A stretch of DNA of 64,000 nucleotides, from NCBI GenBank assembly GCA_029906195.1, contig JARWSJ010000002.1, forward strand, positions 930,001 through 994,000. The letters run 5' to 3'. The stretch comes from Chitinophagaceae bacterium 26-R-25. Lineage in GTDB: Bacteria; Bacteroidota; Bacteroidia; Chitinophagales; Chitinophagaceae. Positions within the stretch are counted from its first letter, which is position 1; each line of letters starts with the position of its first letter. Positions 10,501 through 56,494 of the stretch are shown in pieces. The notes under the pieces are model-generated. The model did no database searches. It was given only the letters and a program-made list of their open reading frames with translations, and had not been told where the DNA came from. The position numbers and the translations under genes are program-made.

Positions 10501-11359
10501 GAGTGTTGAAGGTGTGCAGTGGAAAAGAACGAAAGGAGATTCATCAATAGTCATCAGAAACATAACGTTGGATAGTTTAATGCTCGCCACTGCCCGCGAC
10601 AAGCGTCTGCCATTTAAGCACGGTGTTGAAAAGCCAATGCCGACAATGCTTATACAAAACCTTCCACTCAGGGTAGATGTCGATACAATACGCGTGAAAA
10701 ACAGTCATGTAGAAGTGCATGAGATATCGAAAGTGACCAACAAGGAAGGTGTAATTCCCATTGACAATATCAATGCGGTGATCACTAATTTTTCCAATTA
10801 CAACAATAGCAACGATAGTTTGACCATTTATGCAAGCGCGGATATTTTTGGCGGCACCATCAGGCACTTTCATTATAAAGAGTCTTATGGTGACTCGCTC
10901 TCTGCATTTAGTGTAAGGGTTGCGTTATCGCCATTGCGTTTGCCTGGATTAACAACAGCAGTGATGCCTCTTAGTGGTGTAAAAGTTAATGATGGCAATT
11001 CCGACACACTGTTTGCTTCATGGGTGGGCAACAAATACGCAGCTGTGGGTGATATGAACTTCTATTACGACAAACTGAAAATTGAATTGCTGGACCCGAA
11101 AGACTTCAGTCATCACAGCCTGAAAATAAGAATTGAAAATATGCTCGCAGGCGTGCTGATCAAAAAGAGCAACAATAAAAATTCCAGGACTTTTTTTGTT
11201 CGCGACAGGGAAAAATTTGTTTTTAACTATTGGGTAAAAACCTGTCTGAGCGGCCTGCTCACCAGTGTTGGCATGAAGAAGAACAAAAAGTATTTGAGGG
11301 AATACAACTCGAGTAAGGAGAAGTATTCGCTGCCTGCGGCGTACAGAGTGACTGAATAA
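7529..11359 (+). CDS. Very large membrane-anchored AsmA-like protein
   Basis: 1276 aa from the ATG at 7529; the open frame from 7475 adds 18 unlikely residues that include the end of the terminator region. A basic N-terminus (MNLSSRQKKW) is followed by one membrane helix (about residues 9-31, ILLIPFALLFILGGILHYLIAF), then about 1200 residues of beta-rich, periodic sequence with many short strands of the type DSLxLxxVxVxN. This resembles the AsmA / DUF748 group, thought to form long lipid-carrying grooves across the periplasm. The C-terminus is basic and has a hydrophobic stretch (VKTCLSGLLTSVGMKK). The last residues VTE and the TAA stop lie in an inverted repeat. The family assignment is by general pattern only. 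Confidence 0.55.
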   Translation: MNLSSRQKKWTIILLIPFALLFILGGILHYLIAFKVKDIAKYAVYKESDGVYSFDASSIDVSIWKKTIVLKNCRLVCNDTANVVTSYSARIPEVYFRLQSVRKLLFNKQVAIDSMSIAMPQVDIRSHKMEAIDNKPISFHASQIIDVLHKMVASLQVRSFNIRDASLSYLTTKTGVPFQSDHINFYISNFSKKDKEKKYLFSSDDIDMYITDQHWKLPDGIHEVAFKKLHFSGKNQYFELDSCVLKTRATPEHAGIVIATDKLFFNSKNLQNVYQNNSLEIDTLNCIHPVLSMETSQKKGHDTTRAVSNALQRLFESVNFKYLSIVDGQVLQNGIGNTNPTYGTRKANILVYNLDYNANRKEPLTTDSVKLRLSEIAFISKDSMQRLDINDFYFNKNELIMYQAAYSPTEKNNNSKGLSFKTPALRIDNISISDLLNEKLKGTKARLYAPHFTMFDKTPATKGNPGRPNSMDNFYKVLHGLHDMIDVDTFQVINGELRYDISRNSTHSTMKNLNATILLQKLFDSDSLVDIKRSMPELTVGEINLSSPKMKLNARQYRFKGTHRHNWAKSFELHLKNNTSVKGQDLYWEIFDWDLLANHHIISFEYLKADKLIVDNESTVTAARKNTTAKKLPVITIRRLDIDTLLVEKKMKNGGDIKLTGRNICLDDIASKENYMVWGNMVADFSNIHLANSNMNVKVDKFSINNEYQNEMHGVSIKTTKEGQSTSISIPLAIIKTQIHSSSIKQADISEIVVNNAKANIHAKSTDFDKEGKRNFKVPLDLTAAKVMVNNATVNYVAENIADSMTVNCKLDMNLKDLITSKEGDTKLTYGLAVVTVKDAQMKRGLLDVQVPLAALITTNGRGKLNSENQLQVNSGLQVKWQNVSVKTQKGDSASLAINKLTGSYTDSHFTSHPAEKQSIQALLNRATISNGNMVYKGKTNTVNVGSIKWNELSDKLTVKDFSMMPNLNRDSAFKEGNWQADYLTLNGKELSVEGVQWKRTKGDSSIVIRNITLDSLMLATARDKRLPFKHGVEKPMPTMLIQNLPLRVDVDTIRVKNSHVEVHEISKVTNKEGVIPIDNINAVITNFSNYNNSNDSLTIYASADIFGGTIRHFHYKESYGDSLSAFSVRVALSPLRLPGLTTAVMPLSGVKVNDGNSDTLFASWVGNKYAAVGDMNFYYDKLKIELLDPKDFSHHSLKIRIENMLAGVLIKKSNNKNSRTFFVRDREKFVFNYWVKTCLSGLLTSVGMKKNKKYLREYNSSKEKYSLPAAYRVTE

Positions 11360-11452
11360 CTGAATGACTGAATAACTGAATGCCTGAATTTCTATTTTGC
11401 AGTATAATGTTCAAGCACTCAGTTATTCAGTTATTGAGTTATTCAGTTATTA
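11350..11452. repeat. Inverted repeat, TAACTGAA 8-mer family
   Basis: The left arm (11350-11387) reads ACTGAATAACTGAATGACTG and the right arm (11416-11452) is its complement. The stops of both convergent genes are inside: TAA of the AsmA-like gene (11357-11359) and TGA of the GAF gene (11443-11445, minus strand). Confidence 0.95.
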
Positions 11453-12661: not shown

Positions 12662-12755
12662 AACTGAATAACTGAATAACTGAGTGTTGGAAGGCCATAG
12701 TGCAAAATCAAAAATCAACCATTCAATTATTCAGTTAATCAGTTATTCAGTTATT
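12662..12755. repeat. Inverted repeat, TAACTGAA family, between divergent genes
   Basis: The arms at 12662-12684 and 12721-12755 have the same orientation as the other copies, although no gene ends here: the flanking GAF and VOC genes are divergent. Confidence 0.9.
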
Positions 12756-34100: not shown

Positions 34101-35343
34101 TCTTTTCAACCTGCTTTCAAATGCTTTCAAATTCACCCCTGAGAATAAGACAGTAGACGTAAGCGTGCTGTTAAAAGCAATCCATGCAGACAACGCAACA
34201 CATCTTTTAACGGTGACGGTAAATGACACCGGTATCGGCATGGAGAATGACAAGAAAGAAAAAATATTTGACAGATTTTTTCAAAATGAAATACCGGGCA
34301 CATTAATAAACCAGGGAAGTGGGATAGGGCTAGCCATTACAAAAGAATTTGTGAAACTGCACAACGGTAGCATTTCAGTCCATAGCATTTTAGGCGAAGG
34401 CAGCACTTTTGAAGTGGCATTGCCATTGAAGGAAGTGGTACACGCACCTGTGCACATCGAAGAAAACATAATCAGCGAAGTGGTTGCGGTAAATGGAAAC
34501 AACAAACACATTGAGACAGAACAGCATATTGTTCCGGCGGAAATAGAAATCCAGGAAGAAGAAGTAAAGGGAAATTCATTTTCAAAGAAGCCGACCGTGT
34601 TATTGGTTGAAGACAATGATGATTTCCGGTTTTACCTGAAGGACAACCTTCGCGAACACTTTAATATACTGGAAGCAGAAAATGGAAAAGTGGGCTGGCA
34701 AAAAGCGTTGGCATCGCATCCCGAGCTTGTAGTGAGCGACATCTCCATGCCGGTGATGGATGGAATAGAACTATGTAAAAAGCTTAAAGCCGATAAAAGA
34801 ACGGCGCACATTCCTGTGATATTGCTAACAGCTCTAACAGGAGAAGACCAGCAATTACGCGGCCTGGAAACGGGGGCCAATGATTACATGACCAAACCTT
34901 TCAATTTTGAAATTCTTCAATCGCGCATAAAGAACTTATTATCGTTGCAAACAAAAATGCGGAAAACTTACCAAAAGCAAATGGAGGTAAAACCGGCCGA
35001 CGTTGAGATAAGTTCTCCGGATGAAAAGTTCTTAACACAGGCATTGGAGGTAGTAGAAAAAAATATTTCCAATCCAGACTTCTCCGTAGAAGATTTGAGC
35101 AAGGCGATGTTCATGAGTCGTGTGGCGCTTTACAAAAAGCTCCTCACGTTAAGCGGTAAAAGCCCGATCGATTTCATCAGGGATATCAGATTAAAACGGG
35201 CCGCCCAACTTTTAGAAAAATCCAAAATGACGGTTTCAGAAATAGCTTATGAGGTTGGTTTTAACGATCCTAAGTATTTCGCCAAGTACTTCAAGAAAGA
35301 GTTTGGAGTTACGCCGTCTGCATATGCGAGAACTAATAACTGA
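31177..35343 (+). CDS. Hybrid two-component system regulator (HTCS) of PUL 2
   Basis: 1388 aa in one chain. Signal peptide (1-20); two-component-regulator propeller repeats (about 25-690, e.g. WFGTSSGLNRYDGYKF, IWIGTNGGGLIYFNRQTN); Y_Y_Y domain (about 715-795, YMLEGFDKEWTITDGKNRKATYTNLSPG); membrane helix (about 808-828); HisKA with His867 (NVSHEFRTPLSL); HATPase_c (GIGMENDKKEKIFDRFF, GSGIGLAI); receiver domain with Asp1188 (VVSDISMPVMDG); AraC-type HTH (about 1290-1388). All catalytic residues are present. HTCS proteins bind oligosaccharides in the periplasm and activate the adjacent PUL, here GH31-SusC-SusD-GH2. The RIC-Rrf2 genes lie between on the other strand. Confidence 0.95.
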   Translation: MRCLSVILFLQILFCCDLFSQGTQYRFSRIDIRNGLSNNQINSILRDDKGFMWFGTSSGLNRYDGYKFKVFKHIISDSTSIGNDIISRIWEGPDNKIWVQARDHINFYDRETETFSRDEKLYFAKIGIPDSAIDDIKKDKKGYYWFVHTTAGLLRYDSKTEKSIHFTHTNNDETTICDNNVTAFAENGAGDFWIIHGNGVMEKMDGKTNKVVYRNGLLVPYFSGNSDFQIFIDAQDELWCYVTTVSNGVFHFNPSQNKLTHISKESSPQLNNNIINGVTQDGDGLVWICTDHGGINIYNKENNSIRYLINNEDDDKTIAQNAITAVYRDSSGIIWAGTYKQGVSYYRENIIKFPLFRHQPSNPTSLSYDDVNRFVEDVKGNIWIGTNGGGLIYFNRQTNQFTRYTHSNSNPNSIGNDVIVSLWIDQDQKLWIGSYYGGLDCFDGKNFVHYKHNEADPASISDDRIWEIFEDSKQRLWIGTLGNGIDLFDRNTKTFTHHRKSDGYLQTNYIAAITEDRAGNIWFGTDAGIDVLDNKTSKFIHLSHNDNGTSLSNNFVMTLLQDSRGMIWAGSSEGITIFDIDRKVVKILRVSDGLPDNNILNILEDNNHNVWISTRNGICKISISGNSTKDYAYRFQNFDEQDGLQGREFNENAALKTKKGELMFGGANGFNLFDPSNIQTNKSVPAIAFTDFLLFNKTIAVGEKVGKHVVLDKSISETKQIILKHNENVFSIEFAALSYSNTEKSQYMYMLEGFDKEWTITDGKNRKATYTNLSPGTYTFKVKASNDDGVWNEKGITMTIKVLPPFWKTPLAYLLYLLVIGGVLYFARFRILQRARTKFALEQERHQAQRLHELDMLKIKFLTNVSHEFRTPLSLILTPLERMLKFSGDDEKKQLQLIYRNARRLLNLVNQLLDFRKMEVKELKLQTRQGDIVQFMKDIAQSFTDLADKKNIRFSVTTNVEHFITFFDHDKIERILFNLLSNAFKFTPENKTVDVSVLLKAIHADNATHLLTVTVNDTGIGMENDKKEKIFDRFFQNEIPGTLINQGSGIGLAITKEFVKLHNGSISVHSILGEGSTFEVALPLKEVVHAPVHIEENIISEVVAVNGNNKHIETEQHIVPAEIEIQEEEVKGNSFSKKPTVLLVEDNDDFRFYLKDNLREHFNILEAENGKVGWQKALASHPELVVSDISMPVMDGIELCKKLKADKRTAHIPVILLTALTGEDQQLRGLETGANDYMTKPFNFEILQSRIKNLLSLQTKMRKTYQKQMEVKPADVEISSPDEKFLTQALEVVEKNISNPDFSVEDLSKAMFMSRVALYKKLLTLSGKSPIDFIRDIRLKRAAQLLEKSKMTVSEIAYEVGFNDPKYFAKYFKKEFGVTPSAYARTNN

Positions 35344-35560
35344 GTAACTGAATAACTGAATAACTGAATGGTTTCAATACATTGGATCGGGACTGTTAGA
35401 GGCATTTCTCATGTTTAACGAAGCTTCGACAAGCTCAGCTTGACAGCCTTAGCGGAATGTCAGGCTGAGCTTGTCGAAGCCTTCTGCTTACTTTGTGTTT
35501 TTCATTGCTATCAGAGTTTCCAACATTAAAACCTTCAGTTATTCAGTTTATTCAGTTATT
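35335..35560. repeat. Nested inverted repeat, TAACTGAA arms around a CTTCGACAAGCTCAG palindrome
   Basis: The outer arms at 35335-35371 and 35532-35560 hold the stop codons of both convergent genes (TGA of HTCS at 35341-35343, TAA of RIC at 35556-35558). Inside, 35421-35446 pairs with 35458-35482 (GGCTTCGACAAGCTCAGCCT type). Confidence 0.95.
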
Positions 35561-36281
35561 GCTTCTCCATCTGCACCGCTTTCGGGAACAGGATATTGTT
35601 TTCAAGGTGTATATGCTGATACAGGTCGCCGACAAATTCTTCTAATTTTTTGAAATAAAGGTTGTGGCTATTACATGCATTTGCCGGAATAGTAAAGTTG
35701 CTGGTCAGTTCTTTTATTTTTCTCACCAATTCGCCTGCAGCATTGTGATCATCTTCCATTACGGAAATTGGTTGTTGAACAGTACTGAAACTTCCACATC
35801 CCGCTGCTCCTGTATTTTGCTGCTCAAGTTGTTTAATAAATGGAAACAGGATCATTTCTTCTTTTTTCATGTGCGTGTGCAATTCTTCCAGTAGCTCCAT
35901 TACATGATGTCTCAGCAGTGGCAGGTAGCTAAAGCGTTCGCCATGTTTATAAGCGACCCTGTTGCTCAGTTCGTCCAGTAGTTGGGTACTCTCTCTTACA
36001 TATTTGTGGTGCACATTCACAATGTAATCAGCAAGGAAAGAAGACGGCCAACTGTCGAAGTCGTGTTGCGCCGTTCCTACATTTACTGTTTCAGATTTGT
36101 CCAGCGCCTCTTTTACCAGGTCAACATCCAGCCCCGCCGCTTCAGCAGCTTCTTCAACTGTTTTCTTTCCACCGCAACAAAAATCGATACCGAGTTTTTT
36201 AAAAACTTCTGCTTTGCGGTAATCTCTGCGGGCCATTTCACCAACTGTTTCCTGTTTTGTTTCTAATGAACTGTAGCTCAT
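35556..36281 (-). CDS. ric: Iron-sulfur cluster repair di-iron protein (RIC / ScdA / YtfE)
   Basis: 241 aa. An N-terminal ScdA domain with the vicinal cysteines GIDFCCGGKKT (Cys35, Cys36) is followed by a hemerythrin-like domain (about 85-235) with the di-iron histidine and glutamate pattern: HHKYVRE, LLRHHVMELLEELHTHMKKEE, MEDDHNAAGE, YQHIHLENNILFPKA. RIC proteins repair Fe-S clusters damaged by nitric oxide or peroxide in the cytoplasm. The length is normal. It lies 59 bases downstream of an Rrf2 regulator on the same strand, and both share a 24-base upstream repeat, which suggests joint control. The final codon-stop is in an inverted repeat. Confidence 0.95.
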   Translation of the reverse strand: MSYSSLETKQETVGEMARRDYRKAEVFKKLGIDFCCGGKKTVEEAAEAAGLDVDLVKEALDKSETVNVGTAQHDFDSWPSSFLADYIVNVHHKYVRESTQLLDELSNRVAYKHGERFSYLPLLRHHVMELLEELHTHMKKEEMILFPFIKQLEQQNTGAAGCGSFSTVQQPISVMEDDHNAAGELVRKIKELTSNFTIPANACNSHNLYFKKLEEFVGDLYQHIHLENNILFPKAVQMEKQ

Positions 36282-36303
36282 AATATGTAAGTTTAATTTT
36301 AAA

Positions 36304-36327
36304 TAAGGATGTTTTTGTCTTTTATTG
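36304..36327 (-). promoter_or_regulatory. 24-base direct repeat upstream of ric, candidate Rrf2 operator
   Basis: Identical over 24 bases to 36810-36833 in front of the Rrf2 gene; the core is AAGGATGTTTTTGTCTTT, an imperfect inverted repeat. It lies 22 bases upstream of the ric ATG. Confidence 0.65.
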
Positions 36328-36340
36328 TATCAAAAAAATT

Positions 36341-36778
36341 TTAATCGATTTTCAGGAATGCTTTTCCGGTTTGCAGGGAAACTGCCATATCCTTGATGGT
36401 CATTCCGGAGAGCATTTGTTTGATATTGTTTCTGATGGACGCATATTTATTATGTAAAGGACAAGGTTCCGTTTCGGAGCAGGCTTTAAGACCCAGGCCA
36501 CATTTCGATAAAACTTCCTTTCCTTCGATTGCTTCAACCAGGGCGATCATTGGTTGTTTTAGTTGTTCTGCGGTCATGTAAAAGCCACCATTTACTCCTT
36601 TTTGGGAGCTAAGCAAATGGTTCCTGGTAAGTATCTGTAAAATTTTTGCAGTAAAATGTCTTGGCGCCTCAATGTTCTCGCAAATTTCTTCAATGCCCGT
36701 TTTCTCCGTTTTATCACTTTGAGAAGCGATGTAAACGGCCGCCCTTATCCCGTATTCACATGTTTTTGAAAAAAGCAT
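36341..36778 (-). CDS. Rrf2-family Fe-S transcription regulator (NsrR-like)
   Basis: 145 aa from the ATG at 36778 (MLFSKTCEYGIRAAVYIA, the usual Rrf2 start). An upstream Met at 36796 would lie inside the -7 box at 36794-36801. Winged helix at residues 1-80 (PRHFTAKILQILTRNHLLSS, KGVNGGFYM). Three cysteines follow (Cys93, Cys100, Cys106 in KCGLGLKACSETEPC), the spacing used to hold a Fe-S cluster in IscR and NsrR. It probably senses NO or iron-sulfur status and represses itself and ric through the shared repeat. It is divergent from the GH31 gene of PUL 2. Confidence 0.92.
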   Translation of the reverse strand: MLFSKTCEYGIRAAVYIASQSDKTEKTGIEEICENIEAPRHFTAKILQILTRNHLLSSQKGVNGGFYMTAEQLKQPMIALVEAIEGKEVLSKCGLGLKACSETEPCPLHNKYASIRNNIKQMLSGMTIKDMAVSLQTGKAFLKID

Positions 36779-36793
36779 TGATCGAAGTTTTAG

Positions 36794-36801
36794 CAAAGGT
36801 A
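36794..36801 (-). promoter_or_regulatory. -7 box TACCTTTG of the Rrf2 gene
   Basis: An exact TAnnTTTG box 15 bases before the ATG. The 24-base repeat lies just upstream, between the -7 and the expected -33 region, a good place for a repressor. Confidence 0.7.
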
Positions 36802-36809
36802 GGGGGAAT

Positions 36810-36833
36810 TAAGGATGTTTTTGTCTTTTATTG
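36810..36833 (-). promoter_or_regulatory. 24-base direct repeat upstream of the Rrf2 gene, candidate operator
   Basis: The second copy of the repeat at 36304-36327, with 24 of 24 bases the same. It lies 8 bases upstream of the -7 box. Confidence 0.7.
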
Positions 36834-36837
36834 AAAA

Positions 36838-36940
36838 AATAACTGAATAACTGAATAACTGAGTAACCGAGGAGTCCGATAGTGTAAGTGACATTTCGAA
36901 CTGGAAACTTCAGTTATTCAGTCATTCAGTTATTCAGTTC
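36838..36940. repeat. Inverted repeat, TAACTGAA family, between divergent genes
   Basis: The arms are at 36838-36872 and 36908-36940 in the usual orientation. It separates the Rrf2 promoter from the GH31 control region. No gene ends here. Confidence 0.9.
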
Positions 36941-36953
36941 TTGGGTGGTCAAA

Positions 36954-37126: not shown

Positions 37127-40003
37127 ATGATTGTTTTGCCTGTTAGAAAAGTAGCATTGCTTTGCGTCCTTTCTTTTTTGGTTGCTATAAATGTATCTGC
37201 ACAGCAACCCGTTTTAGAAAAATTACAGAACGGCATTACCATAAATTTTTCCGCGCCCAACGATGAAGGTGTCAATAAACTTTCCCTGTATGTGATCAAC
37301 GATAACATTATCAGGGTGGTGGCAACTCCATTAAACGGATCGGAGACAGACAAAAGCCTGATGTTACAGGACAACCTACCCAACAACAAGAACTCGAATT
37401 GGAATGTAACAAACAATGAAAACGAAGTCATTGTAAAGACGGCTGCTATCCAGGCCCTGGTTTCCCTCAAAACGGGAAAAGTGATTTTCAAGGACCTTTC
37501 CGGTAATATTTTATTGCAGGAAAAAGATAACAGCCGCCACTTCAGGCATGTGGTTTACGAAGGACAACCGCTCTATGAAACGCAGCAGGCGTTCACTTTA
37601 AAAAACGATGAGGCTACTTACGGTCTTGGTCAGCACCAGAGTGATGTAATGAATTATCGCGGTCAGCAGGTGTTTTTGTGGCAAAACAATACCGAGGTAG
37701 CAGTACCATTTTTAGTGTCCAGCAATAACTATGGTATTCTTTGGGACAATAATTCACTAACGACTGCAGGAGATGTTCGCCCACTGATGCCATTGTCTGC
37801 TTTGAAATTGTATTCAAAAGAAGGTGATAACGGATGGCTGACGGCAACATACGGACATCACAACAGCCCGTACAAACAATTTGCCGTTAGGGCAGAATCT
37901 GATATCGACTATACTTTCCTGAATGACATTAAAAAAGCGCCGGAAGGATTTTTTGCTTTGAACAACGGGCTGGTAACATGGGAAGGTGCAGTAGAATCAG
38001 GCATGACAGGTTTGCATCAGTTTCATGTGAAATCTGCGGGGTATGTAAAGATTTGGATAAACAACCAATTGCTCTTCAATCGCTGGAGACAACCGTGGAA
38101 CCCGGGAGATGTGTTGCTGCCGTTGCAAATGGAGAAAGGCGTTAAGTACAATATTAAAATTGAATGGCAACCGGATGGAAACGACAGCTATTTGTCTGTA
38201 AAATGGCAAGCGCCTGTTCCAGAGGCACAGCAGAATGATTTTGCTTTTGTTTCGAATGCAGGTAAAAAGATTGATTACTATTTCATCAACGGAAAAAACC
38301 TGGATGAAGTAATAAGCGGTTATCGTTACCTCACTGGAAAGGCGATCATGTTGCCAAAGTGGGCATGGGGCTTATGGCAAAGTCGTGAACGCTACAAAAC
38401 ACAACAAGAACTTTTAGATGTGGTGGCAGAGTTCAGAAAAAGAAAAATTCCACTGGACAACATCGTGCAGGACTGGAGCTATTGGAAGCAAGATGATTGG
38501 GGCAGCCAACAGTTTGACAGCTCACGTTTTCCCGATGTCACAGGAATGATCAAAACATTGCACGCCGAGAACACGCACTTTATGATCTCTGTTTGGCCGA
38601 AATTTTATGAAGGCATTCCTGCGTACAAACAGTTCAATGCAAACGGATGGTTATATAAAAGAAACGTAGCGGACAGACAACGCGACTGGATTGCACAAGG
38701 ATATGTATCAACTTTCTATGACGCTTTCAATGCAGATGCACGCAAGGGATTCTGGGATTTGCTCAATAAAAAATTGTATTCAAAAGGCGTTGATGCATGG
38801 TGGATGGATGCAAGTGAGCCGGATATTTTGTCGAACGTAAGTCCTGAAAAAAGAATAGAACAAATGCAGCCAACCGCTGCAGGCCCCGCTGCGCAATACT
38901 TAAACGCGTATCCTCTTGAGAATGCAAAAGGCATTTATGAAGGACAGCGTGACGCCGACCCTAACAAAAGAAGTTTCATTTTAACGCGTTCCGGTTTTGC
39001 AGGATCACAACGCTATGGTGCTGTAATATGGAGTGGCGATATAGCTGCACGCTGGCACGACATGAAAGATCAGATTGCTGCAGGATTGAATTTCTCGTTG
39101 TCCGGACTTCCTTACTGGAGCATGGATATAGGTGGCTTTGCCGTTGAAAAAAAATATGAGCATGCGCAAGGCGAGGACCTTGAAGAATGGCGCGAGCAAA
39201 TGACACGCTGGTACCAGTTTGGTGCTTTCTGTCCGCTGTTTCGTGTGCATGGTCAGTTTCCGTACCGTGAAATTTACAATGTAGCACCCGAAACACACCC
39301 AGCATACAAAAGCATGTTATACTACGATCACCTGCGGTACAGATTAATGCCTTACATCTATTCTTTCGCAGGAAAAATTTATCAGGATGACTATACCCCA
39401 ATGCGCGCATTGGTGATGGATTTCAATACTGATCCAAAAGTTAAAAATATTGGCGACCAGTTTATGTTCGGTCCTTCATTGCTCGTAAGTCCGGTACTGG
39501 AATACAAAGCAACGAGCCGCAATGTATATCTGCCTCAGGGCAACGGTTGGTATAATTTCTACACCGGAAAATATGAAGACGGCGGCCAAACCATCAATGC
39601 CGATGCGCCTTACGAACGTGTTCCGTTATATGTAAGAGAAGGCTCGATTGTACCTGTTGGTCCTGCGCTGCAATTTACTTCTGAAAAACCTGCGACTGTA
39701 ATTACGCTGTATGTATACACAGGAAAAGACGGCAGCTTCACTTTGTATGAAGATGATGGGTTGAAATACAATTACGAGAAAGGTGCATTTGCAAACATTC
39801 CTATCACTTACAATGAAGGCGATGGAACGCTTACCATTGGCGAAAGAAGCGGCACATTCGATGGCATGTTGAAGAAGAGAACCTTCAATATAAAATGGAT
39901 CGGCAAAAACAATGCACAGGCATTTGACGCCGACGCGAAAGGCGACGAGAGCGTGACGTACACGGGGAAGAAGGTTGTGGTGAAGAAGAAAATAACTGAA
40001 TGA
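37127..40003 (+). CDS. GH31 glycosidase with PA14 insert, alpha-xylosidase type
   Basis: 958 aa with a signal peptide (to about residue 25, NVSAQ). The GH31 N-terminal beta-sandwich is interrupted by a PA14 domain (about 255-365, WEGAVESGMTGLHQFHVKSAGYVKIWINNQLL), as in the Bacteroides ovatus xyloglucan alpha-xylosidase. In the TIM barrel, the nucleophile is Asp561 in WWMDASEPD and the acid/base is Asp638 in WSGDIAARW. The C-terminal beta domains carry LYVREGSIVPVGP. It would remove non-reducing alpha-xylose (or glucose) from oligosaccharides. It is the first gene of PUL 2. The final residues ITE and the stop lie in a TAACTGAA array. Confidence 0.9.
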   Translation: MIVLPVRKVALLCVLSFLVAINVSAQQPVLEKLQNGITINFSAPNDEGVNKLSLYVINDNIIRVVATPLNGSETDKSLMLQDNLPNNKNSNWNVTNNENEVIVKTAAIQALVSLKTGKVIFKDLSGNILLQEKDNSRHFRHVVYEGQPLYETQQAFTLKNDEATYGLGQHQSDVMNYRGQQVFLWQNNTEVAVPFLVSSNNYGILWDNNSLTTAGDVRPLMPLSALKLYSKEGDNGWLTATYGHHNSPYKQFAVRAESDIDYTFLNDIKKAPEGFFALNNGLVTWEGAVESGMTGLHQFHVKSAGYVKIWINNQLLFNRWRQPWNPGDVLLPLQMEKGVKYNIKIEWQPDGNDSYLSVKWQAPVPEAQQNDFAFVSNAGKKIDYYFINGKNLDEVISGYRYLTGKAIMLPKWAWGLWQSRERYKTQQELLDVVAEFRKRKIPLDNIVQDWSYWKQDDWGSQQFDSSRFPDVTGMIKTLHAENTHFMISVWPKFYEGIPAYKQFNANGWLYKRNVADRQRDWIAQGYVSTFYDAFNADARKGFWDLLNKKLYSKGVDAWWMDASEPDILSNVSPEKRIEQMQPTAAGPAAQYLNAYPLENAKGIYEGQRDADPNKRSFILTRSGFAGSQRYGAVIWSGDIAARWHDMKDQIAAGLNFSLSGLPYWSMDIGGFAVEKKYEHAQGEDLEEWREQMTRWYQFGAFCPLFRVHGQFPYREIYNVAPETHPAYKSMLYYDHLRYRLMPYIYSFAGKIYQDDYTPMRALVMDFNTDPKVKNIGDQFMFGPSLLVSPVLEYKATSRNVYLPQGNGWYNFYTGKYEDGGQTINADAPYERVPLYVREGSIVPVGPALQFTSEKPATVITLYVYTGKDGSFTLYEDDGLKYNYEKGAFANIPITYNEGDGTLTIGERSGTFDGMLKKRTFNIKWIGKNNAQAFDADAKGDESVTYTGKKVVVKKKITE

Positions 40004-40153
40004 CTGAATGACTGAATAACTGATGGGTGTTCTGGATTACTACTGAGTTGTTAGTTGTTCGTTGTTAGTTGTTAGGCTTTACGTGCGACATTCCCTAACA
40101 ACTAACAACTAGCAACTAGCAACTAGCAACTAACAACTAACAACTAACAACTA
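39990..40153. repeat. Composite repeat: half TAACTGAA array plus TAGTTGTTAG inverted repeat
   Basis: A single TAACTGAA arm (39990-40024) begins at the GH31 stop with no right-hand partner. It is followed by an inverted repeat of the unit GTTGTTA (40045-40077) and its complement, an array of AACTAAC and AACTAGC units (40094-40153). Confidence 0.9.
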
Positions 40154-56345: not shown

Positions 56346-56452
56346 TAATAACTGAATAACTGAGTAGCTGAATAACTGAGTGGTTCAATTTCTATTTTGC
56401 CCTACATCTTTCAACCATTCAGTTATTCAGTCATTCAGTTATTCAGTTATTA
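56346..56452. repeat. Inverted repeat, TAACTGAA family, between convergent genes
   Basis: The left arm (56346-56383) follows the kinase stop by four bases, and the right arm (56413-56452) faces the cystathionine beta-synthase gene. A half copy of the GGAACGCAGATTTTCATGA family (56453-56495) fills the rest up to that gene's stop. Confidence 0.92.
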
Positions 56453-56494
56453 AAAAATCAGGGAAAATCAGTCAAATCAGCGTCATCTGCGTGC

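Follow-up and report, generated by a model that had tools for sequence, protein, structure and literature searches.

The window, meaning the whole 64,000-nucleotide stretch that was analysed, carries two neighbouring minus-strand genes, rrf2 and ric (Table 1). The rrf2 product matches the Rrf2-family models PF02082 (81.1 bits, cut-off 30) and TIGR00738 (83.9 bits, cut-off 73.3), and the ric product matches TIGR03652 (225.5 bits, cut-off 204.7). For rrf2, the ATG listed in Table 1 is the best choice of start; a longer ORF beginning with TTG would run into the promoter. The 24-base sequence TAAGGATGTTTTTGTCTTTTATTG is present at 36304-36327 upstream of ric and at 36810-36833 upstream of rrf2. 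As reported in a preliminary description of this DNA, the two copies are identical at 24/24 positions and both precede minus-strand genes. In 100 dinucleotide shuffles, the expected number of second copies is 0, even when three mismatches are allowed. The perfect -7 box that the same description placed 8 bases from the 24-mer at rrf2 is likewise present; the flavobacterial sigma-A -7 consensus is TAnnTTTG (PMC9723704).

Table 1. Genes and sequence features around the rrf2 and ric promoters (window positions)
Feature	Position	Strand	Remarks
rrf2, Rrf2-family regulator, 145 aa	36341-36778	-	ATG at 36778; C93, C100, C106 and H109 invariant across homologs
rrf2 operator, predicted	36807-36832	-	26-bp palindrome AATAAAAGACAAAAACATCCTTAATT; 19/22 match to the palindrome of orthologous rrf2 promoters
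rrf2 -7 box TACCTTTG	36794-36801	-	downstream of the operator, by 5 bp from the 26-mer and 8 bases from the 24-mer
ric, iron-sulfur cluster repair di-iron protein (ScdA_N + hemerythrin), 241 aa	35556-36281	-	ATG at 36281
ric operator, predicted	36301-36326	-	26-bp AATAAAAGACAAAAACATCCTTATTT
ric weak -7-like element TAAACTTA, putative, from sequence	36288-36295	-	5 bp downstream of its 26-mer
AATAACTG arrays	11343-11447, 12663-12751, 35339-35367, 36834-36946, 39995-40023, 56351-56455		

Rrf2 homologs were searched in 101 relatives, and their promoters were inspected for a shared motif. The unit recurring in orthologous rrf2 promoters is AATAAAAGAYA-N4-TRTCTTTTATT, or AATAAAAGAY-N6-RTCTTTTATT in its 26-bp form. 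This palindrome is matched at 18/22 or better in 23 of 71 rrf2 upstream regions, whereas shuffled sequences give 0.02 on average and 1 at most, a comparison that is partly circular because the consensus was taken from some of those 71 regions, which does not apply to the later tests. In the window, the 26-bp unit read on the minus strand is AATAAAAGACAAAAACATCCTTAWTT, with the end AATT at rrf2 and TATTT at ric, and the ric operator is also found in both other genomes of the genus (L032, L033). The half-sites are constant in relatives (L031-L034) and the 6-bp centre varies or flips. The 24-base identity is therefore best described as two operator copies that share a common centre. The core had been described as an imperfect dyad of 18-24 bases; the dyad stands, and the operator is larger, at 26 bp. 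Orthologous promoters, in which a lack of the motif had been named as evidence against it, retain the palindrome. A different pattern, AAGGAT-N7-TCYTT with one mismatch, is not more frequent in the window than expected by chance.

In the 6.5-Mb genome from which the window derives, the exact 18-base core is found only at the rrf2 and ric sites. As a genome query with three mismatches this core was rejected, since its 35 matches do not exceed those of the reversed control and are nearly all intragenic. With the palindrome consensus and at most three mismatches, eight places are located. Three lie at rrf2, ric and a qNor-type norB, four are intragenic and one is a weak intergenic position (L138, three mismatches, low-complexity sequence). 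The best intergenic matches are thus those at rrf2, ric and norB. The third site, AATAAAAGACATTTTTATCCTTTATT, lies on another contig and has one mismatch; 266 bp separate it from the qNor-type nitric oxide reductase gene downstream, which has 764 codons, and an exact -7 box, TAATTTTG, follows the operator after 3 bp. The check suggested earlier, a genome search for the motif to see whether nitrosative-stress genes lie behind it, thus has a positive outcome. Neither of the genus's two other genomes has qnorB or, at up to two mismatches, a comparable third site; at that threshold the survey of relatives is noisy, and only sites with at most one mismatch are informative. A 43-codon ORF (MKLRFVFKNPNNTLPNNIDC...; L183, minus strand, about 4130-4000, G000:C1) lies within the 266 nt between the third operator and qnorB and possibly encodes a small protein or leader peptide.

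Across 296 genomes of the family, a hand count gives about 86 sites with at most one mismatch, while the reversed pattern gives 13, with 5 of them in one genome. When 76 of these near-perfect sites were examined, 54 were found to face rrf2 or NO/Fe-S-related genes, in a tally where some sites count for two genes. The targets are rrf2 (28), RIC (9), hemerythrin (5), nos-cluster cytochrome (5) and truncated globin (3) genes, together with genes for qNorB, flavohemoglobin, NorC, azurin-like, CDGSH, cupin and cysteine desulfurase proteins. In one genome (G150) all seven sites precede unrelated genes, which indicates that single matches can be due to chance. Among 296 genomes sampled across the phylum, 25 contain sites, and their targets include rrf2, qNorB, RIC, a NorC-like cytochrome, NirK (scoring above the curated cut-off) and fasciclin-domain genes. 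The last of these, fasciclin-domain lipoprotein genes behind the operator in distant Bacteroidota (L253, L254, L270), are unexpected for an NO regulon. CDGSH iron-sulfur protein and cysteine desulfurase genes lie behind the operator in one genus (L171, L232, L170).

The sites also hold a defined position relative to the promoter. TAnnTTTG starts 10-16 bp downstream of the site in 43 of 94 cases, where about 0.3 are expected, and the gap between operator and -7 box is 3-5 bp in the window and at qnorB. At either spacing, the -33 region would lie under the operator, which fits a repressor.

The window Rrf2 protein is predicted to adopt a winged-helix fold (pLDDT 89), and the model resembles the structures of RsrR, CymR, NsrR and IscR. 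Residues C93, C100, C106 and H109 are invariant in 100/100 homologs. This set is similar to C92, C98, C104 and H107 of E. coli IscR, with a first cysteine gap of X6 rather than X5; H109 aligns with IscR H107 in all 100 homologs, and H107 is the known fourth ligand of IscR. In contrast, E. coli NsrR has no such histidine three residues after the last cysteine. Position 8, at which Streptomyces coelicolor NsrR carries an aspartate as fourth ligand, is glutamate in the window protein and in 77/100 homologs, and otherwise Lys, Gly, Gln or Arg. Glutamate is also found at this position in RsrR of Streptomyces venezuelae, which is the best fold match and, among solved structures, the best sequence match. 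RsrR nevertheless differs from the window protein in its cysteine arrangement, shares about 19% identity with it and is not known to head an NO regulon.

Several family assignments were tried and rejected for this protein. The NCBIfam NsrR equivalog scores 39.9 versus 182 bits, with all 30 homologs matching only weakly, the IscR equivalog scores 42.1 versus 207.6 bits, and the NCBIfam models for RirA and CymR fall far below their cut-offs. In the tree, this Rrf2 family forms its own clade (96/96), but the branch of E. coli NsrR is very long. Additionally, the NsrR operator gATGyAT-N5-ATrCATc with at most three mismatches is absent from both promoters, and its 10 matches in the window compare with 10.8 expected; the operator here is instead AAGAY-N6-RTCTT within the 26-bp palindrome. 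On the other hand, the system shares with the NsrR regulon of Proteobacteria, Bacillus and Streptomyces a regulator of the Rrf2 family with three cysteines that is likely a repressor, and sites before hmp, dnrN/ytfE (RIC), norB and nirK, the NO-detoxification regulon being defined here by operator prediction only. The window Rrf2 would therefore appear to work like NsrR, yet on the features tested it is not classifiable as NsrR.

These similarities bear on which signal the protein senses. The main rival reading holds that Rrf2 binds the sites and senses Fe-S or redox status, in the manner of IscR, RsrR or CymR, rather than NO, with RIC and NorB forming part of an Fe-S stress response. We consider this unlikely. 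It draws on the invariant C-C-C-H set, on the SUF-regulator and IscR models scoring above the NsrR model for the window protein, on RsrR and CymR as the nearest solved folds, and on the cysteine desulfurase and CDGSH genes behind some sites. Against it stands the predicted regulon, most of which is NO-specific (qNorB, NorC, NirK, nos-cluster cytochrome, flavohemoglobin and RIC). Unlike IscR, whose isc operon would be expected nearby, the window rrf2 has ric as its genomic neighbour, not isc or suf genes, and the predicted targets are NO and denitrification genes.

Two lines of evidence address which protein binds the palindrome. First, of the 50 genomes that encode a near Rrf2 homolog, 15 have a site with at most one mismatch, compared with 0 of the 51 others (Fisher 7.6e-6). 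Second, and with the most weight, operator and recognition helix change together. Nine homologs have an altered recognition helix, EHTVGK (T42/G44) instead of the usual EHFIAK or RHFTAK, and the standard operator is missing for all nine (best 15/22). In T42-type genomes a variant operator, AATAAAAGTA-N6-TACTTTTATT, precedes RIC or hemerythrin genes. A search of the 101 genomes with this variant found it once in each of nine genomes, and these are precisely the ones with a T42-type Rrf2. The chance of such an overlap is 1/C(101,9) = 4.8e-13, a value that overstates the independence of these genomes since they share ancestry. The variant site was predicted in G068 and G099 ahead of inspection and then found; there it heads an operon with the order RIC, DUF1858/DUF2249 protein, membrane protein, Fe-S assembly protein (PF01883) and rrf2. 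In other T42-type genomes, RIC and rrf2 lie by their coordinates on the same strand 3-4 kb apart; in G092 the listed variant site stands before a hemerythrin gene, with a weaker copy at the RIC operon, and in G011 rrf2 is on a different contig. For 32 of the 61 F/Y42-type homologs, the upstream 300 bp contain no clear operator; some of these are operon-internal and the rest are unexplained. Given the co-variation of operator and recognition helix, Rrf2 itself is the likely binder of the palindrome. The same genome encodes four more complete Rrf2 proteins, which were rejected for this role, as they lie outside the clade and have no motif in front (best 12-14/22).

The same data weigh on a further alternative, that another NO regulator, for example of the FNR/CRP type (HcpR, NnrR or DNR), binds the palindrome and rrf2 is merely one of its targets. 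The reconstruction of 2005 that defined the NsrR site gATGyAT-N5-ATrCATc assigned Bacteroides to HcpR, a CRP/FNR-type predicted NO/nitrite regulator whose targets include dnrN of B. fragilis (PMC1274295). HcpR thus resembles the present system as a predicted NO/nitrite regulator in Bacteroidota. However, the published consensus sites of the CRP/FNR family, TTGAC-N4-GTCAA and TGTGA-N6-TCACA, are unlike the palindrome (PMC1274295), in 9/9 genomes a different operator accompanies the altered Rrf2 recognition helix, and the sites track the presence of Rrf2, which together make such a binder highly improbable. A non-regulatory origin of the 24-base match, as a local duplication or repeat, might be suggested by the abundant short intergenic repeats of this area and by the shared, weakly constrained 6-bp centre. 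It is already refuted by the conservation of the sites, whose positions are kept in other species while the centres diverge (L032-L034), and by the third copy before norB.

Taken together, both 24-mers are very probably operators of the neighbouring Rrf2 protein, for which the preliminary description had considered them a strong candidate motif: orthologous promoters conserve the palindrome, NO and denitrification genes follow the sites, and operator and recognition helix co-vary, all at the level of sequence. For the whole reading, in which the 24-mers are Rrf2 operators and Rrf2 is an autoregulated NO-sensing repressor of rrf2, ric and norB, we estimate a probability of about 0.78; here repression, the Fe-S cluster and NO as the signal are what we infer. 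We propose that the Fe-S form of an Rrf2 dimer would occupy the palindrome (AATAAAAGAY-N6-RTCYTTWWTT, 26 bp) that immediately precedes the -7 box, cover the -33 region and thereby repress its own gene, ric and the distant qNor-type norB. NO would damage the cluster, causing the protein to leave the DNA, and its release would switch on NO removal by NorB and Fe-S repair by RIC. In other Bacteroidota, the same regulon may extend to truncated globins, flavohemoglobin, hemerythrins, NirK, NorC, and azurin-like and nos-cluster electron carriers. The recurrence of the same palindrome across Bacteroidota points to a switch used against nitric oxide. More tentatively, and at somewhat less than even odds, these proteins may represent an NO-sensing Rrf2 lineage particular to Bacteroidota and without orthology to NsrR. 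It would have its own 26-bp operator and a Cys3-His cluster site like that of IscR, and would have split into paralogs whose recognition helices differ (F42/A44 versus T42/G44) and read different operator codes (GAY/RTC and GTA/TAC, respectively).

Denitrification genes and clade II nosZ occur in many Bacteroidota, and a defined operator would make their NO and denitrification regulons readable from genomes of the phylum. The Rrf2 protein is also a named regulator to delete, and the two operator codes provide a natural pair for studying DNA choice by Rrf2 proteins. Association of rrf2 genes with clade II nosZ has already been noted in sediment metagenomes, in a study that does not describe an operator or regulon (PMC6264515). 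An earlier description of an Rrf2 operator or NO regulon in Bacteroidota was not found in the open-access literature; a subscription paper or RegPrecise entry could exist.

Further features were observed in the operons and around the locus. In one variant-operator operon, the first gene encodes a fusion of RIC with several DUF2249 domains (L301:669-2426), to which four stretches match. Membrane proteins of ~430 aa with no Pfam match have their own operator or lie within RIC operons (L220:4061-5374, L177, L301:3710-5002) and are candidates for an uncharacterised NO-response membrane protein. In the window, the 8-base unit AATAACTG recurs in intergenic repeats, often in facing inverted arrays, with 25 matches against 0.01 expected, and one such array adjoins the rrf2 operator. 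Downstream of ric, a REP-like inverted repeat, GGCTTCGACAAGCTCAGCCTGAC, forms two facing arms at window positions 35422-35481.
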